Assembly (NCBI RefSeq): GCF_014203395.1 | Contig: NZ_JACHIW010000001.1 | Location: 5,191,501 to 5,255,500, forward strand | Source of the DNA: Saccharopolyspora phatthalungensis | GTDB taxonomy: Bacteria > Actinomycetota > Actinomycetes > Mycobacteriales > Pseudonocardiaceae | Length of the DNA: 64,000 nt | Reading direction: 5' to 3' | Part shown: positions 12,970 to 55,354 of the stretch, piece after piece | How the letters are laid out: every line of letters starts with the position of its first letter | Position numbering within the stretch: the stretch's first letter is position 1 | Program-made: the position numbers and the translations under genes | Notes under the pieces: generated by a model | What the model saw: the letters and a program-made list of their open reading frames with translations, nothing else | What the model was told of the DNA's origin: nothing | The model's database searches: none

Positions 12970-14175
12970 TCACGTCGACCATGACTCTCGCATCCGGGCT
13001 CGCGCCTCCGCGTACTTCAGTCCGACGGCCTGGTCACCCGCCACGGACTCGACCTCGCGATCATCCACGAGGCGCGGATAGTCGGTGTACCCCTGAGCGC
13101 CTCCGGTGTAGAACGTTGCGCGATCGGGAACCGCCAGCGCCGCACCCACTCTGAACCGCTCGACGAGGTCGGGGTTGGCGATGAACGCCCGACCGAACGC
13201 CACCAGGTCGGCCGTCCCCGCTTCAACGGCGCGGTTGCCCGTCGTTCGGGTGTGGTCGGTGGCGGAGATCAGAGGGCCTGTGAACAGGGGGCGGAAATGT
13301 CCGGCGATCGTCGGTGCCGGCAGCGTGAACTCGTCGGTCGGGTTGATCGGTTCGAGCAGGTGCAGATACGCGAGCTCCCGGGCATCGAGCTGACGAGCCA
13401 CGTACTCGAACAGGGGGAAGGTCTCCTCATCGACGAGCACCCCACCCAACCGGTGCAGTGCAGGATTGAGCCGCACGCCCACTCGACCTCGAGGTATCTC
13501 CTCCGCGACAGCATCGACGACCTCGAGCAAGAAGCGGGCGCGGTTCTCGATCGTGCCCCCGTAACGGTCGGTGCGGCGGTTCATGCTCCGGGCGAAGAAC
13601 TGGCTGAACAGGTACCCGTTGCCGCCGTGGATCTCAACGCCGTCAAAACCCGCACGCACGGCGTTGGCCGCCGCCGCTTGGAAGTCCTCGACCGTCGCCT
13701 CGACCTCGCCTGTGCTCAGGGCACGAGGCACCACGGTCGGTGTGTGGCCACGATTCGTAAAGCATTTGTCGTTCGGGTTGATGGCCGACGGAGCCACCGG
13801 CAGTTGCCCGTCCGGCTGCAAGTCGGGATGCGACAGTGCTCCCACGTGCCAGAGCTGGGCGAAGATCCGACCTCCGGCACGGTGCACGGCGTTGGTCACG
13901 CCGCTCCAGCCCCGCACCTGCGCCGCGCTGTGGATGCCGGGAACGTTGATGTAGCCCACCCCTTGTGGAGAGATCGGTGTCCCTTCGGTGACGATGAGAC
14001 CCGCACCAGCGCGCTGGGCGTAATACACGGCGTGCAGATCGGTTGCAGCCCGTTCTGGATTGTCCGCTCGACTGCGCGTCATGGGCGCCATGACGATGCG
14101 ATTTGGCAATAGCAGGTCACCAATTCTGGATGGCCGGAGCAGAGGCTGCTCGCGGTCGATTCCGGTGTCACTCAT
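12970..14175 (-). CDS. NADH:flavin oxidoreductase, Old Yellow Enzyme family (full length)
   Basis: A 401-residue FMN-dependent ene-reductase. The N-terminus NRIVMAPMTRSRA is the OYE FMN-binding strand; EIHGGNGYLFSQFF and RTDRYGG are the substrate and FMN loop; ADLVAFGRAFIANPDL near the C-terminus binds FMN phosphate. The ATG at 14175 is preferred over the upstream in-frame ATG because GGGAG lies six bases before it. It reduces activated C=C bonds with NAD(P)H. It is divergent from the epimerase-like gene at 14546, so the two probably share a control region. A close but internally deleted paralogue lies at 21821-22705. Confidence 0.92.
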   Translation of the reverse strand: MSDTGIDREQPLLRPSRIGDLLLPNRIVMAPMTRSRADNPERAATDLHAVYYAQRAGAGLIVTEGTPISPQGVGYINVPGIHSAAQVRGWSGVTNAVHRAGGRIFAQLWHVGALSHPDLQPDGQLPVAPSAINPNDKCFTNRGHTPTVVPRALSTGEVEATVEDFQAAAANAVRAGFDGVEIHGGNGYLFSQFFARSMNRRTDRYGGTIENRARFLLEVVDAVAEEIPRGRVGVRLNPALHRLGGVLVDEETFPLFEYVARQLDARELAYLHLLEPINPTDEFTLPAPTIAGHFRPLFTGPLISATDHTRTTGNRAVEAGTADLVAFGRAFIANPDLVERFRVGAALAVPDRATFYTGGAQGYTDYPRLVDDREVESVAGDQAVGLKYAEARARMRESWST

Positions 14176-14545
14176 CTCGTTCTCCCGTATCTGCAAGATA
14201 AAAGGGGCTTGTGATCCCGTCTTCGACGACGCGGCTTCCAGACCGGCGGAGTAGTCGAATTCGATCCGCCGGTGGATGTGGACGCAGAAGCCGAATTAGT
14301 CGACGCAGAATTGCCCACCACGAGCCCGCAGCGTGGACGAGCCTGGCAGGCTGATTTCCCACCGTCCAACGAGGATGTTCGATGGCGTCATCGGGGACGT
14401 CGATAGCCGGAACCCCCGAGCCCGGGCGGCGATCCATCGCCGTTTCCGATGCAGAGATGCGGGTTTCTTGTTGGATTTCGATGGTTTCGGCCGGTCACGA
14501 TGTCATGTGTTCGACTCGTCATCAGGGAGCTGAGGGAGACACCAA
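14176..14545. promoter_or_regulatory. Divergent control region between OYE and epimerase-like gene, with dyad
   Basis: A 370-base divergent intergenic region with no gene. It contains an inverted repeat CCGGCGGA (14243-14250) / TCCGCCGG (14265-14272), and the spacer includes the perfect palindrome TCGAATTCGA (14255-14264). Related GAATT/GTCGA words recur just downstream. The layout fits an operator for one regulator controlling both directions; the LysR-type gene at 17915 is a candidate by proximity only. Confidence 0.45.
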
Positions 14546-21820: not shown

Positions 21821-22705
21821 TCAGCGTCGGGTGGCGCGGCTGCGGGCGCGGGCGGTGGCGTAGTCGAGGCCGACGCGTTGGTTGTTCTGAACGGTGTCGA
21901 GGGTGTGGTGTTGGTCGTCGCGGGGGTAGTCGGTGTAGCCGGGGGCGCCTCCGCCGTAGAAGGTGGCGCGATCGGGGTCGTCGAAGATCACTCCGCCCAG
22001 TTCGTGCAGTGCGGGGTTGAGGCGCACGCCGATGCGGTCGGGGGGCACTTCGTGGGCGACGGCGTCGAGGACCTCGAACAGGAAGCGGGCGCGGTTTTCG
22101 ATGGATCCGCCGTATTGGTCGGTGCGCTGGTTCATGCTGCGGGCGAAGAATTGGCTGAACAGGTATCCGTTGGCGGCGTGAAGTTCGATGCCGTCGAAGC
22201 CGGCGCGCATGGCGTTGCGGGCTGCGTGGCGGAATTCTGCGACGGTGTCGGTGACTTCTTCGGCGGTCAGGGCCCGGGGGGTGACGGTGGGGGTGTGGCC
22301 GGCGTGCGTGAATGCCTTGTCGTGTGGGTTGATCGCTGAGGGGGCGACCGGAAGGGCGCCGTCTTGCTGGAGGTCGGGGTGGGACAGGGCGCCGGTGTGC
22401 CAGAGTTGGCAGAAGATGCGTCCGCCTGCGGCGTGCACGGCGTCGGTGACGAGTTTCCAGCCGGTGACCTGGGTTTCGGTGTAGAGGCCGGGGACGTGGA
22501 TGAAGCCGATGGCGCGGGGGCTGACGTAGGTTCCTTCGGTGATGATGAGACCGGCGCTGGCGCGTTGGGAGTAGTACTCGGCGTGCAATTCCGTGGGCGC
22601 CAGGTCGGGATTGGTGGCGCGGTTGCGGGTCATCGGGGCCATCACAATCCGATTGGGCAACGTGAGCGTGCCCAAGGTGTAAGGCCGCAAAAGCGGTTGC
22701 GTCAT
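21821..22705 (-). pseudogene. Second Old Yellow Enzyme homologue with in-frame internal deletion
   Basis: A 294-residue reading frame, closely related to the OYE at 12970 (shared NRIVMAPMTR, NGYLFSQFFARSMN, RTDQYGGSIENRARFL). The full-length paralogue has about 95-100 residues between GGVLVDE and VPDRATFY; here GGVIFDD runs directly into PDRATFYGGG (junction near 21977-21985). The deleted part contains the last barrel strands and the FMN phosphate-binding ADLVAFGRAF region, so activity is very unlikely, although the frame is open. It lies 72 bases downstream of the transporter gene and was probably the last gene of an ACAD-transporter-OYE operon. Confidence 0.8.
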
Positions 22706-26786: not shown

Positions 26787-26866
26787 ACAGCACCATCACA
26801 CCGCTGCTTAGGCTAGATCGCATGCCTTCAGCCGGGGACGTCGCCATGGTCCTCGATAGACGTGAC

Positions 26867-27866
26867 ATGTTCGACGCGACCACGGTCGCCATGAGCTGCC
26901 GACGACCGCATCGGCCGAAATCCGGACCTCGTGGGAACGGTCATGGCTGGCCGGGGTGCGGCCGGACGCTGAACCGGCTCGATGCATCGAAGTGGACCAG
27001 GACAGCAGCCTGCTTCGGTTGGCGTTGCCCGTGCTCGAACGAGTGGCCGCGTAACTGGCCGATACTCTTCCTACTTCACCGTGCTCGTGGACTCTGCCGC
27101 TCGACTCGGCCACCGCCGTGGCTGGATCAGCCACGGATCGAAAACCTTCGCGAAGTCTTCGTGCTGGGGTGCCAGTTCATCGACGAGTGCACCGGCACCA
27201 ACGGAATTGGGACTCCTTTCGAGCTGCGCCGAGGTGTGTGCGTGCTCGGGGATGACATTTCACGCAGTCGGTGCGGGCTACAGCGTTACGGCTTTCCGAG
27301 CTTCCATCCGGTGACCCGCCGACTGGCGCAGGGTTCCGGCAGAGTCGTTTTGGCTGTCAGGTGGTGATTCCGTAGAGGGTGAGTGGTCGGGTGAAGTCGC
27401 GGGCGGTGTGGCGTAGGGCTTTGGCGATGTTGGTGTGCCCGGTCAGACGAAGCGCTGATGGCCAGGTTGCGTGGGAAGGCCATGATTCTGGGTGCGTTGC
27501 CGGTGCGGGTTCGGGAGTGGTCTTCGGTGTAGGTGACGTCGCGGACCCAGTGCAGGTGGTTGTCGATTTCCCAGTGGCCGCGTAGGTAGGTGCGCACGCT
27601 AGCGGGGTGGGCGTGCTGGCCGGTGATATTGGTGATCCCCACGGCGGCGTCGGCCCGGGGCTGGCCGGTGGCGTTGATGGTGGTGTAGCGCTCGGGAGGA
27701 AGGCGTGGGTGGCATGCGGAGCCCTGGCCGACTGGCGGGGGTGCTCGACCTGTCCGGACCGGCGGGGCGCGCAGAATTCCCTGTTCGGGCGATTCCTTGT
27801 GGCGGACCGTCGCAGACTTCGAACGGGCGCTGCTCGCCGACTCCCGGGAATCCGAATGCTGCAAGC
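26867..27866 (+). pseudogene. Relic of a bEBP-like activator, frameshifted and split by an IS fragment
   Basis: In shifting + frames this stretch matches the intact activator at 47951-49648: ELPTTASAEIRTSWERSWLA, then EVDQDSSLLRLALPVLERV followed by a stop, CTGTNGIGTPFELRRGV, GYSVTAF-like residues, and FHPVTRRL up to about 27335. After an ISAs1-like fragment (27357-27700) the match resumes as VLDLSGPAGR and LFGRFL and ends with FERALLADSRESE at 27866. The AAA and Fis-type helix-turn-helix domains are missing. There are several frameshifts, one stop, one IS insertion and one large 3' deletion. Confidence 0.85.
27357..27700 (-). mobile_element. ISAs1-family transposase C-terminal fragment
   Basis: The minus strand encodes YLRGHWEIDNHLHWVRDVTY, then EDHSRTRTGNAPRIMAFPRN, and in a neighbouring frame LRLTGHTNIAKALRHTARDF up to a stop at 27357. 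This is the conserved C-terminal region of ISAs1-family transposases (RGHWxIENxLHWVRDVTF..., RTGN.PR.MA.LRNLA). A frameshift near 27460 separates the two parts and the N-terminal half is absent. It lies inside the relic activator gene, so it arrived after, or caused, that gene's inactivation. Confidence 0.8.
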
Positions 27867-27867
27867 A

Positions 27868-27887
27868 TGTGCAAAGCCTGAACAGTT
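27868..27887 (+). promoter_or_regulatory. Putative operator, copy 2 of island motif
   Basis: TGTGCAAAGCCTGAACAGTT starts two bases after the end of the relic activator and matches the motif at 49661-49680 in 17 of 20 positions. The same gene-then-motif order occurs at both loci, which shows that the downstream control region was duplicated together with the regulator gene. It lies about 290 bases upstream of the CoA ligase start. Confidence 0.55.
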
Positions 27888-40105: not shown

Positions 40106-40864
40106 GTGGCCATCGAGATCTCGTCCGGCGACCGTCCCGGCACTGTCCGCAGACGACACCGGATGGTCGACCGTGTCGTCGCGCTGCTCGAACTCGCGGC
40201 ACGCCAGCGCGAAGGTCTCACGCTCACCGAACTGGCCCGCAACCTCGACGCCCCGGTGAGCTCGATCCAGGGGTTGGTCAACGGGCTGGTAGCCACCGGC
40301 TACCTGGACGAGCGAAACCGACGCTACCACCTCGGCACCGCCCCGTACCTGCTGAACCTGATGGCCGGCCGGCACATGGTCACCCACGTGACGCATACCG
40401 AACTCGAGGCCGTGCATGCCGAGAGCGGCCTGACCACGCTGCTGTCGATCGTCGTTGGCCAGGAGGTGTTCTACATCGACAGTTGTTCCTCGCAGCCCCG
40501 CTACGACTACCTCGCGAAGAACTACATTCGCCGGTCGCTGATCCGCACGTCGAGCGGATGGGTCTTGCTAGCCAATTTCAGTAGGCGGGACCTGTGGGCC
40601 TACCTTTCCGCGCTGCCGCCGGAGGACGAATCTCGGGTGGAGCGTTTCCTCGCAGTGCTGGATTCGGTGCAGGAGAGCGGGATCTGCGCGGCCCCGCGCA
40701 TATCTGACGTGGCGGACGGGGTCGCGGCCGCGGTGCGCGAGGGCGGGCGGACCGTCGCAGCGGTGAGCGTCGTAGGCCCGCCCGAGGAAATCCAGGACCG
40801 GCGCGATGACCTGGTCTGCATGCTCAAGAAACACCAGGCGCGATGGAACGAGAACTCCCGCTGA
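40106..40864 (+). CDS. IclR-family transcriptional regulator
   Basis: A 252-residue IclR regulator. The N-terminal winged helix includes LTLTELARNLDAPVSSIQGL (about residues 38-57) and GYLDERNRRYHLG. The C-terminal GAF-like effector domain (about 85-250) binds a small metabolite. GTG 40106 is preceded by GGGAGG. It follows the FabG/MaoC genes and sits next to the ThDP-enzyme operon, so it probably represses one or both until a pathway intermediate accumulates. Confidence 0.93.
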   Translation: MAIEISSGDRPGTVRRRHRMVDRVVALLELAARQREGLTLTELARNLDAPVSSIQGLVNGLVATGYLDERNRRYHLGTAPYLLNLMAGRHMVTHVTHTELEAVHAESGLTTLLSIVVGQEVFYIDSCSSQPRYDYLAKNYIRRSLIRTSSGWVLLANFSRRDLWAYLSALPPEDESRVERFLAVLDSVQESGICAAPRISDVADGVAAAVREGGRTVAAVSVVGPPEEIQDRRDDLVCMLKKHQARWNENSR

Positions 40865-41163
40865 TAGGCGCGTCCCTACAGCACGAACGTCTGCGCACTG
40901 CACCGCGCAGCGCCCGCTCCACGAACGTTGCGAGATCGCTGATATCAACCGCGATGCGCGCTTCGGGAAAATCCTTGGCCAGTAGATCTGCGTCCTTCTC
41001 GAGCCAACTCGAATTGGTTTCGCGACAAGTTCATGAGGTGCTCCGACAAGGGGCTCCGGCCGTACTAAAGTTGACGCGGCGAGGAATTCGCTCGCGCTGA
41101 TCCTCCATTTAGCGTTTTCGCGCGAAAACGCCACCACCTTCGGGGCCATCGACCCCACATCCG
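40865..41163. other. Degenerate interval with a 20-bp perfect palindrome
   Basis: GCGTTTTCGCGCGAAAACGC at 41112-41131 is a perfect 20-base palindrome about 30 bases before the maturase relic. On the minus strand, about 40880-41000 has coding-like frames such as KDADLLAKDFPEARIAVDIS, but they are interrupted and unrecognised. The palindrome could be a terminator-like structure, an operator, or part of the degraded intron RNA. Confidence 0.4.
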
Positions 41164-41452
41164 CGAGCACTCAGACACAAGTGGGTTCGACTTCCTCGGG
41201 TTCAACGTCCGCCGCTACAGCAGCACGTTGCTGATCAAACCGTCGGCTGCTGCGATCACGATTACTGGGTCTTCGGCGCCGCCGCCAGCGGCGTCTACCT
41301 GCCCAAGTTCGCCTGGACCGACATCGTCCGGCACCCTGATCACCGGCGGCGCGTCCCCGGACGACCCGACCTTGGCCCACTACTGGACCAAGCGACGACG
41401 ACGGGCCACACCCCCACTGGACAACTACACGCTGCGCGTGCTTACCAGGTAG
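41164..41452 (+). mobile_element. Group II intron reverse transcriptase/maturase remnant
   Basis: Three + frames in succession carry C-terminal maturase pieces: HSDTSGFDFLGFNVRRYSST followed by LLIKPS (41168 on), then SGVYLPKFAWTDIVRHP, then ASPDDPTLAHYWTKRRRRAT ending LRVL at a stop at 41452. These are signature blocks of group II intron-encoded proteins (FDFLGFxxRRY..., ...KFAWTxIVRH..., ASPDDPxLxxYWxxRR). At least two frameshifts and an internal deletion of the maturase X domain show that it is dead. Confidence 0.75.
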
Positions 41453-41594
41453 GACGGACGCGCGGAACGTCTTGATCCGGGTGGTGACCAGGACCGGTAT
41501 CGTCACCTCGGCGGGGAGCCCCCATACACTCGGCGGACGGCGCCACCTTCTGCCGCATGCCCGCGATCCAACAGGACTCATTGCCGTGGTGGGC

Positions 41595-42374
41595 TCACAG
41601 CGCACGTCCTCGCCATGCCATGCCGCCGTCGAGCGTGACGATGCAGCCGCTGGTGTAGCCGGAGCGCGCCGAGGCCAGGAACACCACCGTGTCGGCCACC
41701 TCCTCGGCAGTCGCGATCCGCTGTGCTGGGTAGCTCCGCACGTAGTCGGCCCACCGTCCCGAGTCACCGAACTCGGTGGCCGCGCGGGTCCGCAATGCGT
41801 CGGTCAGTCGGCTGGTCTCGACCGGTCCCGGATTGACCCCGACGACTCGGACACCGTGGTCGAGCGAGTAGGCTCCGACCGTGCGGGTGAGGGTCATTAG
41901 TGCGGAGTTCGCCATCGACCCGGCCAGGTAGCCGACGTCGGGCCGCTCGCCCGAGACGCCGACGACGTTGACCACCACCCCGGTGCCGCGTTCGGTCATC
42001 GCCGCCAGTGCCAGCTGGGTGAGCTCCAGATAGCCCCATACTTTGAGGTCCCAAGCCCGCCGCCAGGCCGCGAGGTCCGCAGCCTCCAGCGCACCCTGCG
42101 GGATCGCACCGGCGTTGTTCACCAGGATGTCCACCTCATCGAGCACGCTGGAAAGCTGCCCGCGGTCGCCCGAACGAGATAAGTCGAGCACGTGGCCGAC
42201 AACCTCGGTTCCCTTCACCTCGCGGGAAAGCCGCGCCACCGACTCGGAATCGCGCGCGGCGACATGGATCCGGCCGACGCCTTCGGCCGCGAAGGCACGC
42301 ACGGTCGCCGCACCGATGCCGCGCGAGCCACCCGTGACCAGAACCGACTGGCCCGCCGTGTAGCAAAGGTCCAT
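41595..42374 (-). CDS. Short-chain dehydrogenase-like protein lacking the catalytic lysine
   Basis: A 259-residue SDR, last gene of the ThDP-enzyme operon. The Rossmann motif TGGSRGIG and NNAG are present, but the active-site segment reads GYLAGSMANSALM: the tyrosine is followed four residues later by Ser instead of Lys, and the preceding Ser position is also unusual (VNVVGVSG). It may belong to a divergent SDR subgroup with a changed active site. ATG 42374 has GGGAGG nine bases upstream. Confidence 0.85.
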   Translation of the reverse strand: MDLCYTAGQSVLVTGGSRGIGAATVRAFAAEGVGRIHVAARDSESVARLSREVKGTEVVGHVLDLSRSGDRGQLSSVLDEVDILVNNAGAIPQGALEAADLAAWRRAWDLKVWGYLELTQLALAAMTERGTGVVVNVVGVSGERPDVGYLAGSMANSALMTLTRTVGAYSLDHGVRVVGVNPGPVETSRLTDALRTRAATEFGDSGRWADYVRSYPAQRIATAEEVADTVVFLASARSGYTSGCIVTLDGGMAWRGRAL

Positions 42375-42417: not shown

Positions 42418-42831
42418 TCACAGAGGTGACTCCACCGCGATGGTCCGCGGGTTCGCGGGCATGAAGATCTCGATGAACTCGAGATCATCGGACGTTGCGG
42501 TCTCGTTGTGCCGGTAGCCGCCGGGAATGAAGCAGACGCCGTTTTCGTGGATGCGGCGCGTCGCCCCGTCCTCGAACTGCAATTCCAGCCAGCCCTTCGT
42601 GATGTAGAGCCACTGGAAGTCACAGTCGTGGTAATGCCAGCCGGTTTCCTTCACCATGCCGGCGCGAATTTTGGTCACCTCGGTGCTGACCAGCCCTTGG
42701 CTCACGCCCGCGACGCCCAAGTCGAAGTACCGGGCGAACGCTCGGCGGCCTGGGATCTCCGCCGCGTCGTCGAGGGCGATCGCATGCGCGGTCATGCCCG
42801 TCGGGATCTCTCGTGTTCGGTCCGCACTCAT
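42418..42831 (-). CDS. Single-domain cupin protein
   Basis: A 137-residue cupin. Metal ligands are likely HYH in GWHYHDCDFQWLYI (about residues 66-68) and the His in FIPGGYRHNETAT. It may be a small dioxygenase, isomerase or sensor; the sequence does not decide. Its start overlaps the stop of the upstream acyl-CoA dehydrogenase-like gene by four bases and it is 43 bases before the SDR gene, all in one operon. Confidence 0.85.
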   Translation of the reverse strand: MSADRTREIPTGMTAHAIALDDAAEIPGRRAFARYFDLGVAGVSQGLVSTEVTKIRAGMVKETGWHYHDCDFQWLYITKGWLELQFEDGATRRIHENGVCFIPGGYRHNETATSDDLEFIEIFMPANPRTIAVESPL

Positions 42832-43337
42832 GATTTTTCCTCCACTTCATTGTGGATCGAGGGTGCCAGGTCCAGATCACTCAGAGACACACCCTCCACC
42901 GCGTATCGCAAGACTGCCGTGTCCCAGAACCGGGCGCCGCCCTCGCCTGAACGCCACGTGAGGATGCGCGTGGTGAACTCGTGCAGCGGATGCTCGCGGG
43001 TCGTACCGATCGCGCCAAGGACCTGGTGGGCGTTGCGGACCACCGGTTCGGCGGCATGTCCCACGCACGAGCGGGCTACCGCCACTGCCGGCATGAGCCG
43101 ACCGGGCGCGGCGTCGTCAGCGATCAAGACGGCCGCGTCGGTCGCCGTCCGCGCCAGAGCGGTTTCCGCGGCGAGTATGGCCAACATCCTTTGCGCGGCC
43201 TGAAATGCCAGATCGGCGGGACCCAGCTCGGTCAGCTGCTGCCACAGTTCCCGCTCGCGACTCGGTTCATGGGCTCGCAGCACCGCTTCGATCAGTGATC
43301 GAACCTCGGTGTCGACAAGGCTGTCGAGCGTCGTCAT
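42828..43337 (-). pseudogene. Acyl-CoA dehydrogenase-like gene with in-frame internal deletion
   Basis: A 169-residue frame (normal family length is about 350-390). The first 40 residues match an acyl-CoA dehydrogenase N-terminal helix bundle up to ELWQQLTELG. They are joined directly to the C-terminal four-helix domain, PADLAFQAAQRMLAILAAET onwards, at about 43215-43225. The whole beta-domain with the FAD contacts, about 200 residues, is missing while the frame stays open. It starts one base after the stop of the full-length acyl-CoA dehydrogenase, an arrangement like heteromeric FadE pairs (ChsE-type), so the intact form was probably the partner subunit. Confidence 0.7.
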
Positions 43338-43338
43338 C

Positions 43339-44466
43339 TCAACCCCACCCGCGCGCGACGACCCCGTACAGGATCTCGTTGGTTCCGCCGCGCAACGTGA
43401 AGCCTGGGCGCTGGACGGCCGCGGACCGGACCGCCTCCGGGAGCGCGCCGGTTCCGTTGCCTGCCAGCAGGTCTGCCAGTTCTACTAGATCCCCTTCGGC
43501 CACAGTGCCCAGCATCTTCACCGTCGCGGCTGGCACATCGGCGCCGTCACCGCGTTCCAACGCCGCAGCTACCGACAGCGACATGTGATGCAACCCGTGC
43601 AAACGAGCCACCAAGCGGCCGACCCCGGGGTCGGGCTCAAGGCGGCCCTCGCGGACCCTACGCAGGAGCAGGCCCACCAGCAAAGCGGTTGACAGGAACC
43701 GTTCCGGCCCGCTGCGTTCGAATCCCAGCTCCGAAGTCACCTGGCGCCAGCCGTCGCCCTCCTGCCCTAGCAGGTTCTCCCGCGGCACGACGACGTTGCT
43801 GAAGACCACCTCGTTGAAATGGCGTCCCCCACTCATCGATTCGATGGGCCGTACCTGCACCCCCGGAGCGCGAAGATCGACGATCAGCTGCGATAAACCG
43901 CGCTGCCGCTCACCGTGCCGCCCGCTCGTGCGGGCGAGGACCACGATGAGATCGGCCTGGTGTGCTCCCGAGATCCAGACTTTGGTGCCGCTGAGCAACC
44001 ACCCACCGTCCACTTCGGTCGCCCGCGTCCGCACGTTCGCCAGATCGGAACCGGCATCTGGTTCGCTCATCCCGATCGCGAACGAGCACTCGGCGGCGGC
44101 GATGGCCGGCAGCAGTCGCCTTTTCTGTTCCTCAGTGCCGAAGCGCAGCAACGACGGCGCCGCTTGCCGGTCGGCGACCCAATGCGCGGCGACGGGCGCG
44201 CCTGCGACCAGCAACTCCTCCGTGACCACGAACCGTTCCAGGAAGCTGCGACCGCGCCCGCCATAGGCACGCGGGATGGTCATCCCGACCCAGCCGCGCT
44301 CGGCCAGCGCCCGGCTGAACACCGTGGACCAGCCGGTGAGCCAGGCATCGATCGTGGGCACGAAGACCCCGCGGTTTCGTTGCTCGGTAAGGAAATCCCG
44401 GACCGCTGCCCGTAGCTGGGCCAGGGCCGGGTCCGGCACCACGGCCGACGGCAGCACAGCGGTCAT
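43339..44466 (-). CDS. Acyl-CoA dehydrogenase (FadE/ChsE-like) with Gly at the usual catalytic Glu position
   Basis: A 375-residue acyl-CoA dehydrogenase with FAD/substrate segments FAIGMSEPDAGSDLANVRTR (about 126-145) and GTKVWISGAHQADLIVV. Near the C-terminus, where MCAD-type enzymes have YEGT with the catalytic Glu, this protein reads FTLRGGTNEILYG, so that Glu is replaced by Gly. The base may sit elsewhere, or in a partner subunit as in heteromeric steroid/isoprenoid FadEs. ATG 44466 overlaps the CoA-transferase stop by four bases; the longer open frame upstream is the shadow of the CoA-transferase. Confidence 0.9.
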   Translation of the reverse strand: MTAVLPSAVVPDPALAQLRAAVRDFLTEQRNRGVFVPTIDAWLTGWSTVFSRALAERGWVGMTIPRAYGGRGRSFLERFVVTEELLVAGAPVAAHWVADRQAAPSLLRFGTEEQKRRLLPAIAAAECSFAIGMSEPDAGSDLANVRTRATEVDGGWLLSGTKVWISGAHQADLIVVLARTSGRHGERQRGLSQLIVDLRAPGVQVRPIESMSGGRHFNEVVFSNVVVPRENLLGQEGDGWRQVTSELGFERSGPERFLSTALLVGLLLRRVREGRLEPDPGVGRLVARLHGLHHMSLSVAAALERGDGADVPAATVKMLGTVAEGDLVELADLLAGNGTGALPEAVRSAAVQRPGFTLRGGTNEILYGVVARGWG

Positions 44467-45376
44467 TGCGCCGCCTCCGCCACACCCTGCCGCACGAGCT
44501 CGCTGATCTCGCGCTGACTGTACCCAAGGGTCGACAACAACTCCACGGTGTTCTGTCCCAGCCGGGGGGCGTGCCGACGAAGACTCACCGGCGACTCGCT
44601 CATGCGGATCGGGCTCAGTGTGCTGAAATACGGGCCCTCTGTGGGGTGCCGAGCCGGGGTGACGAGCGACTGTTCCCGGATGTAGGGGTCGTCTTGCAGG
44701 CGACTCAGGTCCAGCAGTGCCGCTGCGGGGATGTTGCGTTCCCGGCAGAGCTCGAGCCACTCCCGGGTGGTGCGCTTGGGGGTCGCCTCGTGGATGGCCG
44801 CGAGAAGTTCCCCCATGTTGCTATGGCGGGAGTTCACATCGCCGAATCGCGGATCCTCCGCCAGGTGCGTGAGCTCGGCGATCTCGAAGAAGTTCGCCCA
44901 GTTCGCATCCGAATACGGCAGCAGACACACGTACCCATCAGCGGTCCGGTACGGGGTGCGCTCGCGCACCAGGACCCGGCCCCAGCCGAATTCCCCTTCG
45001 GGCGGATCGAACGTGTGACCTCCGAAGTGCTCCACCAGATTGAAATGGATCATCGTGTCCACCATGGGAACTTCGATGTGCTGCCCCGTTCCGGTCGCGG
45101 CCCGGCGCATCAGGGCCGCGAGGATGCCGATCACCATGTGCAGCCCGCTGACCTTGTCCGCGATGACGTATGGGGCGTATCGCGGTTCCCCGTCGACATG
45201 CCCTCGTTGCGTCGCGCGCCGATCAGTCGGGTCATGTCGCCGTCGAGGCGTTCGATCTTGATCACTTCCGCACCGAGGTCGCCGAGCACGGCGGTCGCGT
45301 AGGGGCCCATCACGACGGTGGTCAGGTCCAGCACCGTTACCCCGTCGAGCGCCCCGGCGGTGCCCGTGGTGGTCAT
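44463..45376 (-). pseudogene. Class III CoA-transferase with internal deletion and frameshift
   Basis: The N-terminal 60 or so codons (from ATG 45376) read [40 protein letters not shown] and end at NEGMS. The continuation is in another frame, [20 protein letters not shown], onwards to the stop at 44463 with a complete small domain and C-terminus. At the junction (about 45185-45200) about 85-90 residues, including the catalytic Asp region (PAYDxxxQ), are missing and the frame is shifted. The residual product cannot transfer CoA. The C-terminal frame has an internal ATG at 45137 but lacks the active site. Confidence 0.82.
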
Positions 45377-45404
45377 GTCTTGGCGCCCTTCGCGTCGTGG
45401 GACA

Positions 45405-45911
45405 TCACGCCGTCACTCGCTCCGCCACGCCGCCACCCCGCTCGCGATGCTCTGGTGCCTGGTGCGCTAGCGGCTGCATCGCCGCAGCCAGGTGCAGTAC
45501 GGAATCCAGCGAGCCGGAGCGGGATTCAGTCAGCAGTCGCTTGGCCATCCGCAAGGCGTGCGCCGGGTTCCGGGCGATGCGGGCCGCGAGCGCGCTGGCC
45601 TCAGGCATGAGCTCGTCGGCATCGACCACCCGGCCGACCATGCCCCAGGCGAGCGCCGTGGCGGCGTCCACGCGGTCGCCGGTGAACGTCATTTCAGCCG
45701 CCCGCGCCTCACCGATGACGCGTGGCAGGAACCAGGTGCCGCCGTCGCCGGGGATCAAGCCGAGCCGCACGAAGCTCTCAGCGAAATAAGCTGATTCGGT
45801 CGCGATCCGCAGATCGCACATCAAAGCCCAGATCGCGTTGCCGGCGTGTCGGAGGTTGATGGTCCAGGTCTGGACGGGCCCCTCGCACGCGACGAGCAAT
45901 GGGTCGTTCAT
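45405..45911 (-). pseudogene. Enoyl-CoA hydratase-like gene with in-frame internal deletion
   Basis: A 168-residue frame; intact crotonases have about 255. The N-terminal strand MNDPLLVACEGPVQTWTINL is followed, after RHAGNAI, directly by WALMCDLRIATESAYFAESF and a complete C-terminal part with FVRLGLIPGDGGTWFLPR. About 80-90 residues are missing, including the first oxyanion-hole loop and most of the GHAxGAG loop. The frame is open, but hydratase activity is unlikely. The start is 14 bases after the ThDP-enzyme stop. Confidence 0.75.
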
Positions 45912-45925
45912 GTCGTCGGCCCCAT

Positions 45926-47539
45926 TCAGAAGGAAAGATGATGAGTCGGATCGAGGCGGATGTCGACAACCAGTGGCGCCTCCAGCGACGCAACGCGCTT
46001 GGCGAGGACGTCGACATCCTCAAGCTGCGTGACCAAGTGGGCCTCCGCGCCGGCAGCCGACGCGACCGCGCTGAGATCCGGCCAGTCGTTGTAGGCGTGG
46101 CGCGGGTCGAACCCAAGTGCGGTGAGCTTGTGGTACTCGGCGCCGTACGCGCCGTCGTTGAAGACCAGAACCAGGAGCGGCAGCCGTTCGCGAGCAGCCG
46201 TGGCCAGTTCCGAGGCGTGCATCATGAAGCCACCGTCGCCGACAAGCGCAACGGTCAGCTCGCTCACCCCGGCGACAGCCGCACCGATACCCGCCGCCAC
46301 GCCCAGTCCGATCGAACCGAAACCGGTCATTGCCGTGAACCGGCCCGGTCGGCAGCGGTCCAGGTACGGCCAAACCCCGGCGACGAACCGCCCGACGTCG
46401 CTGACGATCGTGCAGTCGACGGGTAGGGCCTGGTTCAGTCGCTGGCTGACAACACGGATGTCGACGGTCCGGGGACCTGACCGCTGGTCGGCAGGAGTCC
46501 AGGTGCGGATCATGGCTGCGGCTTCGACTGATCGCGCCCGCCACGAGTCGCTGCCGGAGAATCCGCCCGCGCGGAGCTCGGCCGTCATCGTGGCCGCGAC
46601 CGCACGTGCGTCGCCCACAATGCTCTCGTCGGGCTGCACAAGCCAGCCAAGCTTCGACGGATCCACGTCCACCTGGAGCAGCCGCTTGTCCTGGAACAGC
46701 TCACCGCCCAGGGTCGTGTACTTGTTCAGGGCCGCGCCGAAGGCGAGAACGCAGTCGCTGTCGTTGAGGATCTGGCTCGCGCCCTCGTGCGAAAGGCTGC
46801 CCATGATGCCCAGATGCCGCGGGTGGTCCCGGAAAAGTCCGCGCGCGAGCCCCGTGGTGAACAGGGGCGCGCCAAGCAGATCGGCCAGCGCCACCAGCTC
46901 TGCTTCGGCAGCCGCCGCGACGACGCCCCGTCCGGCGAGCACGATCGGACGGGAAGAAGCAGCGACGAGTCCCAAAGCCTGATCGAGCGCACCGCCGGTA
47001 ACCGGCGCGATCTGAGTCGGCCACACCGGCTCCGCGACCTGCCCCTCGGACGCGCTCTCCGCCACGGAGATCGGCAAGGGAACGTTAAGGACCACCGGTG
47101 CGCCTGAGCCGCGTAGCCGCCGGAGGGCTCGAGCGAAGTCGCGGACGACCGTGTCAGGCCGGTGGATGCGCTCGTGCGCAACGCCGAGTGAAGCGCAGAC
47201 GGCGCCGATGTCGAGGCGCTGGAGGTGGGTAGCCTCCGCGGGCGGATCACCGGTGATCAACAGAATCGGCGCAGGAAACCGAGCCGCTTCGACGAGGGCG
47301 GTGAGCGTGTTGGTGAATCCGGGTCCGTGCGTGACCGTCGCGACGCCGGGACGACCGGTCATGCGCGCGTAGACGTCGGCCATCGACAACGCACCGGCTT
47401 CGTGCACCGCGCGTACGAAGCGGCCGCCGTCAAGCTCGAACGCACTGGTCAGGTACATGTTCGCATCGCCCATGAGCCCGAACACGGTGTCGACTCCGTG
47501 AGCCTGAAGCAGCGACGCCAGCTGCTCATAGACCTTCAT
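45926..47539 (-). CDS. Thiamine diphosphate-dependent decarboxylase/lyase (acetolactate synthase-like)
   Basis: A 537-residue ThDP enzyme with the three-domain layout. The N-terminal Pyr domain has the ThDP-activating Glu in VRAVHEAGALSMADVYAR (about residue 47), a central FAD/ADP-like domain follows, and the C-terminal PP domain has the GDGGFMM...NDGAYG metal-diphosphate motif (about 424-455). It could be a 2-oxo-acid decarboxylase, a carboligase, or a 2-hydroxyacyl-CoA/oxalyl-CoA-type lyase; the last suits the CoA enzymes around it. It is the first of seven minus-strand genes with gaps of 43 bases or less or with overlaps. Confidence 0.88.
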   Translation of the reverse strand: MKVYEQLASLLQAHGVDTVFGLMGDANMYLTSAFELDGGRFVRAVHEAGALSMADVYARMTGRPGVATVTHGPGFTNTLTALVEAARFPAPILLITGDPPAEATHLQRLDIGAVCASLGVAHERIHRPDTVVRDFARALRRLRGSGAPVVLNVPLPISVAESASEGQVAEPVWPTQIAPVTGGALDQALGLVAASSRPIVLAGRGVVAAAAEAELVALADLLGAPLFTTGLARGLFRDHPRHLGIMGSLSHEGASQILNDSDCVLAFGAALNKYTTLGGELFQDKRLLQVDVDPSKLGWLVQPDESIVGDARAVAATMTAELRAGGFSGSDSWRARSVEAAAMIRTWTPADQRSGPRTVDIRVVSQRLNQALPVDCTIVSDVGRFVAGVWPYLDRCRPGRFTAMTGFGSIGLGVAAGIGAAVAGVSELTVALVGDGGFMMHASELATAARERLPLLVLVFNDGAYGAEYHKLTALGFDPRHAYNDWPDLSAVASAAGAEAHLVTQLEDVDVLAKRVASLEAPLVVDIRLDPTHHLSF

Positions 47540-47950
47540 CGAGCCCCTTCCGTCCAGGGTCGCACCACTCTCGCAGAAACCCCGTCGATACTCAATGCCA
47601 TACTCTGTTACGTATTTACGTACATCTCGACCGCGTGTTGCACATCGAAGTTGAAGTCAAGATCTGGGGCTCGGTCAATGGTCTCCTGCGGCCGAATGAG
47701 TCCGAGTTACCTATATAAGTAAAAGAATCCGCACTTGCGTATCTGCACCTTACCGACAATAGTGAGCGAAGCCAGCCGGTCAGTTTGCCGGGAAGTCGAT
47801 GTTGGTAGCCGACATCGATGATCCGGAGGTCCTGTTCGCACGCTTCGCGGGAGCCTTTGACGCGCTCCACGCGGCTTATGAGCGGGTACTACGGCTGGTG
47901 CGAGCCGTGCTGGTGGTCCGGCCGGTTGAGGTGTGCGGGAAGGAGTCGAC
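47540..47950. promoter_or_regulatory. Divergent control region ThDP operon / activator, with IclR-like palindrome
   Basis: A 411-base divergent region, AT-rich for this DNA and without a gene. TTACGTATTTACGTAC (47608-47623) is a near-perfect palindrome with two TACGTA half-sites, about 70 bases from the ThDP gene start; a related word, TTGCGTATCTGCAC, lies near 47733. The first is similar to a site before the IclR gene (40039-40054). Confidence 0.45.
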
Positions 47951-49648
47951 ATGGGTGTCGAACTGTTGGAAATGGCCTCCATCGCGCGGGAACTACCAAA
48001 GACCGCCGGGGCCGAGATCCGGAGTTCGTGGGAGCGTTGCTGGTCGTCCGGCGTGCGTCCGGACTTGTCGCTCGACCGCCTCGAGACCGCGGAAGTCGAC
48101 CAGGACAGCCGGTTCATGCGCGCCGCGCTGCCGGTGCTGGATCGAGTCGCCGATGAGCTGGCGGAGACGTCCTTCTTTACCGTGCTCGCCGACTGCGCGG
48201 CCCGAATCGTGGACCGTGGCCGGATCAGTCATCGCATCGAGGAGGTCCTCGACAGCACGGGGGTCGTGCTCGGCCGGCGGTTCACCGAGGATTCCACCGG
48301 GACCAACGGGATCGCCACTCCGTTCGAGCTGCGCCGGGGCTTGGCCGTCTCCGGCGGCGAGCATTTCGCGCAGTCGCTTCGGTGTTACAGCTGCTACGGC
48401 TACCCGATCATCAATCCGGTGACCCGCAGACTCGAAGGCGTACTGACCCTCGCCGGGCCGGCGGGCGAGGAGAACCCCTTGTTCGGTCCGTTTCTCCGGT
48501 CGGCGGCGGCGGAGATCGAACAGGCTCTGCTGGCGAATTCCCGCGATACCGAACGACGGTTGCTGGCCGCGTTCGATGCCGCAGTCGCCAGGCGCGACGG
48601 GCGTGCCGTGGTGGCCTTGGGGGACACCGGGGTCGTGCTGGCCAACCAGGTGGCACTGGATCATTTCGATTCCGCGGATCACGGTCGGCTCCGAGAGCTG
48701 GCCGCCGGATTGCGCTGGGGTGGTGGGGGGCGCGCTGTGGACTTCGAGACGACCAGTGGGCTGCGCCTCAGGATGCAGCTGGAGGTGGTCGACGGGTATG
48801 GCAACGTCCTGATCCGCTTCGTTCCCGCGTACCGTTCGCGGCCCGCTCCTGTGCGCGGGCCTAGCTTGCTCGGTGGGGCTCGTGAGTCGACCGAACGGGA
48901 GTTGGTGCGCTGCAGCACGCACCGGCTGGCCACGGTCGTCGCAGGCGAGCCTGGCACCGGTCGGACGAGTATCGCGCTGCGCTTGGCGGAGAGCACCGAT
49001 GCCGCAGTCGTCGCTTTGAGTGGTGTCGACGTGGATTTTCAGGGGCGGGTGGGCTGGCTCGATCGCCTCCGCCGCGCGGGGGACTCCGGTGCGCTGGTGA
49101 TCGTCGACGGATTCGAGCTTCTCGATGATCGACTCTCGCGGGCCGTCGGGGAGAGCATTGCCAGCGGAGCTTGGATCGTCCTCATCGGACCGCCGGTGGA
49201 GCAGCTCGAACCCGAGCACCGGCACCTTGCGTTCCGGTGTCCGGGGCGTATCGAGCTGATGCCCTTGCATGCACGGCGGGCGGAGATTCCTGCGCTGGCA
49301 CAAGCCATTCTCGCCGAGGAGACCGGCGGGTTGGCGCGGTTCACGCCGGAAGCGCTGGCCCGCCTCGCGGAGCTTGATTGGCCCGGCAATGTGCGGGAGC
49401 TGGACCACGTGGTGCGGAGGTGCGCAGCACACCGCAGTGCGGGTGACGTGCTCATCAGTGATCTTCCGCCGGAGTACCGCTCTGGTCCGGAAAGAACGCG
49501 AATGAGCCCGTGGGAACGGGCCGACCACGACGTGATAGTCGCCGCGCTCGAGCGCAACGGCGGCAACAAGGTGAGGGCGGCGAAAGACCTCGGAATCAGC
49601 CGCGGGACGTTGTACAACCGGATCAGGACACTGCGCATCAAGGTCTGA
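47951..49648 (+). CDS. bEBP-like (AcoR-type) activator without GAFTGA and with altered Walker A
   Basis: A 565-residue regulator shaped like a bacterial enhancer-binding protein. A GAF-type sensor region (about 60-210) contains STGTNGIATPFELRRGLAVS and GYPIINPVTRRLEGVL. A degenerate AAA domain (about 300-480) has GEPGTGRTS in place of the Walker A GxxGxGKT (Lys to Arg), ALVIVDGFELLDD as Walker B, and LDWPGNVRELDHVV. A Fis-type HTH ends the protein (GGNKVRAAKDLGISRGTLYN). The GAFTGA loop that contacts sigma54 is absent, as expected in actinobacteria, which lack sigma54. It is divergent from the ThDP operon and upstream of the alcohol dehydrogenase. A relic copy lies at 26867. Confidence 0.9.
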   Translation: MGVELLEMASIARELPKTAGAEIRSSWERCWSSGVRPDLSLDRLETAEVDQDSRFMRAALPVLDRVADELAETSFFTVLADCAARIVDRGRISHRIEEVLDSTGVVLGRRFTEDSTGTNGIATPFELRRGLAVSGGEHFAQSLRCYSCYGYPIINPVTRRLEGVLTLAGPAGEENPLFGPFLRSAAAEIEQALLANSRDTERRLLAAFDAAVARRDGRAVVALGDTGVVLANQVALDHFDSADHGRLRELAAGLRWGGGGRAVDFETTSGLRLRMQLEVVDGYGNVLIRFVPAYRSRPAPVRGPSLLGGARESTERELVRCSTHRLATVVAGEPGTGRTSIALRLAESTDAAVVALSGVDVDFQGRVGWLDRLRRAGDSGALVIVDGFELLDDRLSRAVGESIASGAWIVLIGPPVEQLEPEHRHLAFRCPGRIELMPLHARRAEIPALAQAILAEETGGLARFTPEALARLAELDWPGNVRELDHVVRRCAAHRSAGDVLISDLPPEYRSGPERTRMSPWERADHDVIVAALERNGGNKVRAAKDLGISRGTLYNRIRTLRIKV

Positions 49649-49890: not shown

Positions 49891-51003
49891 GTGAAAGTCA
49901 AAGCAGCAGTGAGCCTAGCTGTGCACCATCCGTTCGAGATCATGGAACTGAATCTGGACGGGCCTGGCGTGGGTGAGGTCCTGATCAAGAACGTGGCCGC
50001 CGGGCTGTGCCATTCGGACCTGCACCTCACCGATGGGGACATGCCGCCTCGTTACCCGATCGTCGGCGGGCACGAGGGCTCCGGAATCGTGGAGGAGGTG
50101 GGGCCGGGCGTCACCAAGGTCAAGCCCGGAGACCACGTCGTCTGTAGCTACATCCCGAACTGCGGAGTGTGTCGCTACTGCGCCTCCGGACGCTCGAACC
50201 TGTGCGACCAGGGTGCGTCGATCCTCGAAGGCCGGTTCCCGGACGGGTCGTTCAAGTTCCACAAGGACGGCCTTGACTACGGAAGCCTGTGTCTGCTCGG
50301 CAGTTTCGCGGAACGGTCCACGGTGTCCCAGCATTCGGTGGTCAAGGTCGACGACTGGATCCCGCTCGAGACCGCTGTCCTGGTGGGCTGCGGCGTACCG
50401 GCGGGCTGGGGGGCCGCGGTCTACAACAACGGCCTTCGCCCTGGGGACACCGCGGTGATCTTCGGGATCGGAGGTCTGGGCATCAACGCGGTCCAGGGCG
50501 CGGTGATGGCCGGGGCACGGTATATCGTCGCGATCGACCCGCTGCAGTTCAAACGAGATACAGCGCTCAAGTTCGGAGCAACGCACGCCTTCGCCACCGC
50601 CGAGGAGGCACACGAGGCGGTCTGCGAGCTGACGTGGGGCCAGATGGCTGACGGCGCGTTGATCTTCGTGGGTACCCCGGACGAAAAGGTCATCTCCGAG
50701 GCTTTTGCGATCATCGGGAAGGGTGGCACGGTGAGCCTGGCCAGCCTGGCCGATCCGGCCAAGCTTACCGTGCACATCTCGGGCATGGAGCTGACCCTGA
50801 TGGAGAAGACGATCAAGGGTTCGCTGTTCGGCTCATCGAATCCGCAGTACGACATCGTGCGGCTGCTGCGCCTCTACGACGAGGGCAAGCTGAAGCTCGA
50901 TGAGCTGATAACCCAGCGGTACAGCCTTGAGGAAGTGAACCAGGGCTACGACGACCTCCGGGCCGGCAAGAACATCCGCGGCGTCATCATCCACGATTCC
51001 TGA
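49891..51003 (+). CDS. Zinc alcohol dehydrogenase, NDMA-dependent (Rxyl_3153-like) type
   Basis: A 370-residue medium-chain dehydrogenase. The catalytic Zn site has GLCHSDLH (about residue 37) and GGHEGSG; the structural Zn site has four Cys in CGVCRYCASGRSNLC (about 91-105). The Rossmann motif is GIGGLGINAVQG. Length and sequence fit the NDMA-dependent alcohol dehydrogenases whose tightly bound NAD is recycled by mycofactocin; no mycofactocin genes are in the window. GTG 49891 has AAAGGA eight bases upstream. It would oxidise the alcohol that feeds the aldehyde dehydrogenase at 36533. Confidence 0.88.
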   Translation: MKVKAAVSLAVHHPFEIMELNLDGPGVGEVLIKNVAAGLCHSDLHLTDGDMPPRYPIVGGHEGSGIVEEVGPGVTKVKPGDHVVCSYIPNCGVCRYCASGRSNLCDQGASILEGRFPDGSFKFHKDGLDYGSLCLLGSFAERSTVSQHSVVKVDDWIPLETAVLVGCGVPAGWGAAVYNNGLRPGDTAVIFGIGGLGINAVQGAVMAGARYIVAIDPLQFKRDTALKFGATHAFATAEEAHEAVCELTWGQMADGALIFVGTPDEKVISEAFAIIGKGGTVSLASLADPAKLTVHISGMELTLMEKTIKGSLFGSSNPQYDIVRLLRLYDEGKLKLDELITQRYSLEEVNQGYDDLRAGKNIRGVIIHDS

Positions 51004-51365: not shown

Positions 51366-51656
51366 TTAATGGTGTCGTGCTGTCTTGTCGTGGTGTTCGG
51401 CGATGGGTGGGGGTTCTCCGGTGAGGGTGGCGAGTGCGGTGGCGTTTCCTGGATGCTGGGCGCGGTTGAAGGTGGTGGCGCGTCCGGCGTCGGTGTGTCC
51501 GGCGTAGGCGCGGGCGATGGCCGTCAGGACGTCGCCGGTGCGGTCGAGTAGGAGCAGCGGCATCACGACGGTGGTGATGCCTTTGCCCAGCAGGGGGAAC
51601 CCGTAGAAGCCGAGGTACACCCCGGCGCTGCGACGCACCCCGGCGCGCGGGGTCAT
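51366..51656 (-). CDS. Small hypothetical protein
   Basis: A 96-residue frame on the minus strand with an N-terminal hydrophobic stretch, VYLGFYGFPLLGKGITTVVM and onward through LLLL, followed by a polar Ala/His-rich tail. Its ATG overlaps the stop of the upstream small frame (ATGA), which argues that both are real and coupled. The family is not recognised. A degraded gene is the alternative. Confidence 0.35.
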   Translation of the reverse strand: MTPRAGVRRSAGVYLGFYGFPLLGKGITTVVMPLLLLDRTGDVLTAIARAYAGHTDAGRATTFNRAQHPGNATALATLTGEPPPIAEHHDKTARHH

Positions 51657-51919
51657 CGCCGGCGCCCGGCCGGCGCCGTGAGCCGCTTGGTGGAGCGGCG
51701 GAACGCCCAGACGACCACCAGCAGGGCCAGCGCCGTCAGCGGAGTACCCATCGCGATCTTCGCGAACGCCAGCCAGCCCGTGGCGTCGGCGAGATCTGCT
51801 GGCACAGGAACGAGAACGGCATCATCAGCGCCGCCAAGGCCCCGGCGCACTCCCCAGCCAGGATCGGCCAGCGTTGTTACACGAGCCGGGACTCGGCCTT
51901 TCGTGGGAATGATCTCCAT
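51653..51919 (-). CDS. Small putative membrane protein
   Basis: An 88-residue frame with one clear transmembrane segment near the C-terminus (AMGTPLTALALLVVVWAF) followed by a basic RRSTKRL. The family is unknown. It overlaps the next small frame by four bases. It could be the remnant of a transporter or of a mobile-element spread gene. Confidence 0.35.
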   Translation of the reverse strand: MEIIPTKGRVPARVTTLADPGWGVRRGLGGADDAVLVPVPADLADATGWLAFAKIAMGTPLTALALLVVVWAFRRSTKRLTAPAGRRR

Positions 51920-53825: not shown

Positions 53826-55354
53826 CTAGGCGAGCACGTCGTGGCCGTCTGCTGAGGTGATCGGTGTGTGGTGTCCGGGTGGTTGGTCAGCCGTGGCGAC
53901 GCGGTTTTTTCCCTTTTTTGCCTGCTGTAGCAATGCGATGTCCGCGGTCTCCTGCAGGGATTTCAGTGTGGTTCCGTGCAGTGGTGCGGTGGCGAGTCCG
54001 ATGGACACTGTTGCGCTGGGCTTGTCTTTCCCGATCATGATCGGCTTGCCGCCTGCGGGTGTGGTGACTTGGATTGCCCGTTGTTCGATCGAGGTGCGGA
54101 TGCGTTCGGCGATGACAAGTGCGGTTTGGCGAGGCGTTCTGGGAAGGAGGGCAAGGAACTCGTCGCCGCCCCATCGGCACAGCAGATCACCTTGCCGGGT
54201 TTCGGCTCGCAGCACGTGCGCGATGTTTTGAGGATTTCGTCGGCTCCGAGGTGCCCGATGGTGTCGTTCCACTGCTTGAGGTTGTCGAGGTCGATGAGCA
54301 GGAGGGACGTGTGTTGGTGGTGGTCGTGGTCGGTAGCCAGCGCGAGCTGTGCCAGTGGCTCGAATGCCGCCCGGACTGGGAGCCCGGTCAGAGGGTCGTG
54401 TAGGGCGTTGCGCCGAACGTCCTCGTGGTCTCGCTTTGCCTTCTCGAGGTGGTGTTTGCAGCGGGTGGCCGCGATCGCCAGTGGCAGGACCGGGATGAGC
54501 AACAGCGCGGAGTGTGCTTGCAGCACGGCTGTGCATGCTGCGGCCAGCAGTGCGGTGAGCTCGAGTGCGTTGTCGTCGCGGTCGCCGAACAGCCGTGCCG
54601 GCCTCCACGTGCGTTCGGAGAGTGCGATGGCGCCCGCGACGAGTGCTGCCTGGGTCAGGAAGTAGGCCGCTACGCATGCGGTCAGACCGAGGGAAACCGT
54701 TGTGATACCGGCGGGTGTGGTCGGCCAGGGTGTGTGACCGGTGAGTACCGGGTGAAGGCCCGTGTACTGGGCGAGGGCGTGTGCGGCGAGCATGGAGAGG
54801 ACGATGCCGCTGGTGCTGAACAGGTATCGGTGTGGTGGTTTGCGTGCGATGAGCCACCGTTGTGTTCGGACCGCGGCGCAGACCGCGAGTGCTAGGAGCG
54901 GGGGAAGCAGTATTGCGGCGGTGAACAGCCAGACGCTGGTGAGGTCAATGTGCGCGACACCGCGGTCTCGACTGGCACCGCGCCTGCGTTCTTCGGGCTC
55001 GCGGGTCAGCGCGGCGTGGGCGCAGGCGCAGCAGATGAGCACCACGAAGCAGTGGAGATCGGCTGGGTCGTAGTGCTCGGTGAGAACGGCTCTGGCGGCG
55101 AAAGTCACGGCGAGCAGGTGCCCCAGCAGCACCCATACCCGTGCCAGGGCGGGCAGCGCCGTCCATCCTCTCGGTCTAGGTCGTGGCTGCGGGATCTGCC
55201 CTGGTAAAGGCCAGTTTCGGTGAGATCGTGCGCGGGGGATACTGGGGGCGCCTGGACCGTCGTCCCCGACAGGCGGGCGGGTTGCTTCCGCGCTGGCTGC
55301 GGGGCGTGCTGCTAGCGGAGGTGAGTGTCGTGATCGACCGGGACTGGTAACCAT
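53826..55354 (-). CDS. Membrane-anchored GGDEF diguanylate cyclase, apparent frameshift
   Basis: An N-terminal membrane domain of about six hydrophobic segments (for example SVWLFTAAILLPPLLALAV and LTACVAAYFLTQAALVAG) is followed by a GGDEF domain: HDPLTGLPVRAAFEPLAQLA, LLLIDLDNLKQWNDTIGHLG, then ADEILK. There the frame breaks; one base over, NIAHVLRAETRQGDLLCRWG continues through the intact GGDEF and SIGLATAPLHG to a stop at 53826. The break is in a four-base A run on the coding strand (T run 54226-54229); one more A would restore it. The intact protein would make cyclic di-GMP. The start is uncertain (ATG 55354, or upstream 55414). Confidence 0.8.

Follow-up and report, generated by a model that had tools for sequence, protein, structure and literature searches.

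Within a 64,000-nucleotide stretch of the Saccharopolyspora phatthalungensis genome (the window), three genes of one putative catabolic operon lack their middle parts and keep their ends. The initial annotation offered three causes for this pattern: a deletion-prone mechanism, relaxed selection and an assembly artefact. Which of them best accounts for the damage is examined here by comparison with intact operons from other species.

Organization of the operon

The operon lies on the minus strand and encodes a ThDP-dependent enzyme, an enoyl-CoA hydratase (ECH), a class III CoA-transferase, two acyl-CoA dehydrogenases (ACAD1 and ACAD2), a cupin and a short-chain dehydrogenase (SDR) (Table 1). 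A gene encoding an IclR-type regulator is convergent with the operon, both in the window and in all three relatives described below.

Table 1. Features of the window discussed in the text
Feature	Coordinates	Strand	Condition	Basis
OYE paralogue	21821..22705	-	shortened, junction near 21977	alignment to paralogue
Relic activator, paralogue of activator 47933-49648	26866..27880	+	relic	70% identity over ~430-450 bp
IclR-type regulator	40106..40864	+	intact	Pfam PF09339/PF01614
6-phosphogluconate/hydroxyisobutyrate-dehydrogenase-type shred	40908..41061	-	two frames	E-value 7.8e-5 (weak); family from L028 gene (Pfam)
Group II intron reverse transcriptase/maturase (ltrA) remnant, probable	41075..41449	+	remnant	tblastn against plasmids
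OYE shred	41456..41582	-	two frames	E-value 1.3e-5 (weak)
SDR	41595..42374	-	intact	Pfam PF00106/PF13561, synteny
Cupin	42418..42831	-	intact	Pfam PF07883, synteny
ACAD2	42828..43337	-	shortened, 169 aa	Pfam, alignment
ACAD1	43339..44466	-	intact, 375 aa	Pfam
Class III CoA-transferase	44463..45376	-	split in two pieces	Pfam, alignment to intact operons
ECH	45405..45911	-	middle absent, 168 aa	Pfam, alignment to L027/L028
ThDP-dependent enzyme, operon gene 1	45926..47539	-	intact, 537 aa	Pfam TPP_enzyme_N/M/C

A zinc alcohol dehydrogenase gene (Pfam; 49891-51003) adjoins the operon and has 85% DNA identity to L027, the Amycolatopsis locus described below; compared with L027, its strand is flipped relative to the ThDP gene, which indicates a local inversion. 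Other features of the window include a possibly broken GGDEF protein (54035-55132; domain positions 1-61 of 161 matched, with ~60 residues beyond), a DUF3159 gene fragment (51653-51919) of which positions 145-187 of 188 are left, and a minus-strand Rfam match to ASpks antisense RNA (2864-2932) within a large plus-strand ORF. Coding density (0.76 in the window against 0.37-0.87 in ten control stretches from the window's genome, and 0.997 and 0.504 in the flanks) is uninformative here because the simple caller overlooks long ORFs, as seen in the downstream flank.

Intact operons in other species

Searching the genome collection with the ThDP enzyme gave 102 confirmed relatives, from which 80 loci were kept. 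Gene order was checked at six of these (L027-L031 and L098) and also at L002; the remaining 74 loci have 28-36% identity. Among 397 genomes of the order, four have a ThDP match with an E-value of 1e-150 or below, including the window's own; one of the other three (G202, locus L121) carries the operon, and two are without it within 13 kb. A syntenic operon is thus present at three of the ten ThDP loci examined: in Amycolatopsis tucumanensis (L027), in Nocardioides carbamazepini (L028) and in G202, which belongs to the same order as the window. The window ThDP enzyme is 74% identical to that of L027, 61% to that of L028 and 60% to the G202 copy.

The three operons have a common gene order (ThDP-ECH-CoA-transferase-ACAD1-ACAD2-cupin-SDR, with the convergent IclR gene). 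The window shares this order, but ECH, CoA-transferase and ACAD2 are full length only in the references (3/3). Alignment to these operons confirms that the window genes are cut in the middle with their ends kept, as first described; the gene starts align with the intact operons, and cupin and SDR are in place. The initial annotation had left room for the same short forms being found in other species, and none of the three syntenic operons has them. An OYE gene follows SDR in L027 and L028, whereas none was found in the 13-kb stretch at L121. The A. tucumanensis OYE gene (L027:17023-18977) matches the Nocardioides OYE in two frames and so may itself be frameshifted.

No closer operon was found in the genus (22 genomes, including the window's own). 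Among 40 relatives plus the window's genome, none was found either; the best other ThDP enzyme has 45% identity (L002), and no operon gene was seen at this locus, of which 4.6 kb was available. The plasmid collection contains no ThDP match at 1e-100, and the operon DNA gives partial gene matches only.

Lesions in the operon genes

The window ECH compares with proteins of 264 aa in L027 and 265 aa in L028. Relative to L027, ~280 bp are missing at 45826-45838 and one extra base lies beside the junction, giving a net loss of 279 bp that preserves the frame and removes ~93 of 264 residues (~residues 26-119, L027 numbering). The reported in-frame loss of the middle therefore stands, but it is an incomplete description, as the C-terminus also differs from that of the relatives; by our reading of the sequences, this is a second length change near the 3' end.

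In the CoA-transferase gene, ~298 bp are missing at 45194-45198 relative to L027, which bears out the earlier report of a lost middle and a frameshift. The deletion removes ~99 of 403 residues (~residues 61-160, L027 numbering) and shifts the frame, so that the gene is divided into two ORFs: an N-terminal piece (45131-45376) and a C-terminal ORF (44463-45137, frame open from ~45199). ACAD2, which has 321 aa in L027 and 341 aa in L028, lacks ~459 bp near 43203-43211. This loss is in frame, as initially annotated, but it amounts to ~153 residues in the L027 alignment (~46-199, L027 numbering; 160 residues relative to L028) and not to 200.

These three clean, large deletions lie within 2.7 kb, and what survives of the cut genes has no stop codons in the main frames. 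A fourth clean loss is found outside the operon, in the OYE gene at 21821, which lacks ~99 residues (~298 bp) relative to its paralogue at 12970-14196 in the same window. The paralogue alignment agrees with the view that this gene has suffered the same kind of mid-gene loss. No relative of it was found outside its own genome at an E-value of 1e-80 or below in the 22 genus genomes. Each of the four clean losses takes away more than 20% of its gene, in cases that were chosen for being noticeable, and three of the four are 280-298 bp long, an unexplained similarity in a tiny sample.

Mobile-element remnants

The relic activator had been grouped with the mid-gene losses. It differs from the clean cases because an ISAs1 transposase remnant, matching the C-terminal end, lies inside it (~27454-27618, minus strand; NF033564, E-value: 4.7e-14, 52.3 bits, under the family cut-off of 70).

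Two further eroded operon genes, absent from the initial annotation, are found at 40865-41594, in the interval from SDR to the IclR gene, and a probable mobile-element remnant separates them. At this position L027 has an OYE gene and L028 has OYE and dehydrogenase genes (Pfam families); the window has only shreds. The OYE shred corresponds to ~residues 256-298 of the L027 OYE, and the dehydrogenase shred to ~residues 206-256 of 266 of the gene that follows OYE in L028. Both identities lean on the expected order and strand, since the E-values refer to a target of 1 kb and the same list contains many weaker chance matches.

The intervening insert (41075-41449) matches 21 plasmid records by tblastn. 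Five of the ten matches listed are on genes annotated ltrA, and among the matches listed 25-46% of the query is covered, with a best E-value of 8e-6. The insert has no Pfam or NCBIfam match and no intron RNA in Rfam at the gathering score. A 68-bp part of it (41112-41179) has an 81% copy at G000:C2:1984805-1984872, with shorter matches elsewhere. Judging from these remnants, mobile elements probably took part in the damage at two sites, the relic activator and the 40865-41594 gap. The claim that the junctions are free of IS elements thus holds, as far as can be seen, for ECH, CoA-transferase, ACAD2 and the OYE gene at 21821, but not for these two sites.

Deletion junctions and end joining

By eye, the ECH junction shares 2 bp, or up to 7 bp if the lost left side resembled that of the window, and has the one extra base; the CoA-transferase junction shares 3-4 bp, and the ACAD2 and OYE junctions share ~0-2 bp. 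These values are limited by references that are only ~75% identical, and the G202 comparison at the ECH left and ACAD2 right junctions is at the protein level only. In the L027 operon, random position pairs share at least 4 bp at a frequency of 0.028 and at least 6 bp at a frequency of 0.004, which makes the ECH junction suggestive, the CoA-transferase junction weak and the others unremarkable. The search for microhomology proposed in the initial annotation therefore yields short homologies (0-7 bp) against diverged references, and no long direct repeats (none above ~7 bp).

End joining is a plausible maker of such junctions, as the genome encodes Ku (PF02735, one match) and LigD-type ligase domains (TIGR02779, four matches, two above the cut-off). 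The window's genome resembles mycobacteria with Ku/LigD end joining, as portrayed in the portion of PMC3519483 drawn on here, in having these domains and junctions without long homology; it differs in that end joining is here a candidate cause of the junctions. The same portion of that study reports that precise direct-repeat deletions in mycobacteria arise independently of NHEJ.

Search for mid-gene gaps elsewhere in the genome

By our count, 17 of 23 CoA-transferase III rows and 54 of 69 AMP-binding rows in the whole genome are near full length. Besides the two rows of the operon, the CoA-transferase III family has four partial rows at three places, with N- or C-terminal parts missing. Seven of eight OYE rows are near full length, the eighth being the gene at 21821. 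For ECH, 10 of 15 rows are near full length and four are without the C-terminal part; the operon's copy is the only one without the first 100 profile positions. No CoA-transferase III, OYE or ECH copy with both ends kept and the middle missing was seen outside the window. A genome-wide tendency to such deletions is accordingly unsupported, and, judged by these four families, gaps in the middle of genes do not appear to be widespread in the genome. One AMP-binding row (G000:C1:885148) has 367 profile positions in 879 bp and may be shortened inside. Broken loci do occur elsewhere, an example being L109 (G000:C2:784000-790000, near 786307), which has partial CoA-transferase, ECH and AMP-binding family matches.

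Timing of the deletions

Unique amino-acid changes were counted in the window and in L027 (window:L027), with L028 and L121 as outgroups. In the cut genes, the counts are 4:3 for the ECH C-terminal part, 7:6 and 2:3 for the CoA-transferase pieces and 2:4 for the ACAD2 C-terminal part; in the intact genes, they are 20:16 for ThDP, 10:9 for ACAD1, 6:1 for cupin (p = 0.12) and 6:4 for SDR. Pooled over their larger pieces, the cut genes give 15:16 (ratio 0.94, CI 0.43-2.02), a count that leaves out the small ECH and ACAD2 N-terminal pieces; the intact genes give 42:30 (ratio 1.40, CI 0.86-2.32). A separate alignment of the larger pieces gives 5:8, 3:2 and 4:4. With L028 as the sole outgroup, the small N-terminal pieces give 5:4 for ECH (25 sites) and 4:1 for ACAD2 (16 sites), the latter hinting at more relaxation than in the larger pieces.

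What remains of the cut genes therefore does not evolve measurably faster than its intact relative, and, measured against the split from Amycolatopsis, the deletions appear recent. For relaxed selection on the remnants, the counts (no acceleration in the larger pieces, 4:1 in the small ACAD2 piece) are compatible with recent loss. Four genes have an omega of 0.16-0.19 between the window and L027. With omega values of 0.17-0.25, relaxation covers at most ~0.21-0.34 of the window's branch, a rough estimate because synonymous sites are near saturation.

Explanations for the deletions

Among the three causes offered at the outset, relaxed selection fits best, as the genes are whole in all three relatives and cut here. 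On the sequence of this one strain's assembly, the operon has probably been inactivated recently and is in ordinary gene decay. The cut genes have full-length orthologues in conserved synteny, and either much of the ORF or the reading frame is gone; these are two of the marks of a pseudogene formed by deletion. The frameshift in the CoA-transferase gene and the two operon genes shredded in two frames beside mobile debris argue for decay. The lack of stop codons in the main frames and the size of the four clean losses argue against it, and part of the operon may remain in use, given that ThDP, ACAD1 and SDR are intact and show no acceleration. That the deletions are present only in the assembly is suggested by four losses within otherwise clean genes and, by our reading, by two single-base differences within G runs of the ECH gene; nevertheless, this explanation is unlikely. 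Assembly collapse at repeats requires repeats far longer than those at the junctions, and no direct repeat that could collapse is present. No separate fragment with just the lost CoA-transferase or ECH positions appeared in the family searches, no close copy of the CoA-transferase exists besides the operon's own (best other 32%), and two further operon genes have decayed in multiple steps. The 8.54-Mb assembly has 6 contigs and is 99.42% complete and 3.32% contaminated. Given the missing junction repeats and the full length of most family copies, neither collapse in assembly nor a genome-wide habit of deletion is a favoured explanation.

The deletions might alternatively have arisen together, in one episode of damage and repair or in a deletion-prone segment. 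Repeated breakage with error-prone joining, or a process specific to the segment, would then have cut neighbouring genes near-simultaneously, leaving gaps of ~280-460 bp and little other damage. The closeness of the three clean deletions and the presence of Ku and LigD-type ligases are in keeping with this, and the missing stop codons and lack of clear acceleration imply that little time has elapsed. However, a dead operon is itself expected to gather clustered deletions, the OYE/dehydrogenase stretch, with its two frames and mobile debris, appears to be older and the shared junction bases vary from ~0 to 7, which makes a common origin quite improbable, as is either process that might have produced it. 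It is more improbable again, to the point of being hardly credible, that the shortened genes were kept for a new role. Although the frame is kept across the ECH and ACAD2 junctions and the larger surviving parts are unaccelerated, the CoA-transferase is frameshifted, the ECH C-terminus is changed, and a recent date by itself accounts for the missing acceleration.

Proposed model of operon decay

The proposed model for recent decay of the operon is as follows. The pathway would have fallen out of use: with one step lost, selection on the other genes would have lapsed, and the operon would have been eroded by separate deletions. At least four losses (ECH, CoA-transferase, ACAD2 and the OYE/dehydrogenase stretch) would have been fixed independently, their broken ends joined by non-homologous end joining or through slippage at short homologies. 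From the lesions we infer that the enzymes have lost their function, that the losses were independent and followed this order, and that end joining or slippage made the junctions.

Deletion-driven pseudogene formation in bacteria is already well described (PMC2916853, in the portion considered here), and the window looks like an event of this known kind, ordinary and fairly recent, and not like a new mechanism. According to that portion, 346 of 378 Salmonella pseudogenes have a single lesion; among these 346, deletions of 20% of the gene or less account for 141 and stop codons for 131. As in those pseudogenes, genes in conserved synteny appear inactivated in one lineage, through deletion, with orthologues intact elsewhere. 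In contrast to them, several larger mid-gene deletions occur in one operon here, and clean losses that all exceed 20% of the gene are somewhat unusual against the trend given there. Among the few papers listed for internal deletions within catabolic operons of actinobacteria, none dealt with this by title and abstract opening.

Annotators should be wary of the two short ORFs, ECH and ACAD2, which are more probably remnants than small enzymes. More broadly, the locus clearly illustrates an operon at an early stage of decay, with intact syntenic references at hand, in which large deletions precede visible decay by point mutation. It can serve as an example in asking whether, in high-GC bacteria with end joining, large deletions are the first to appear.
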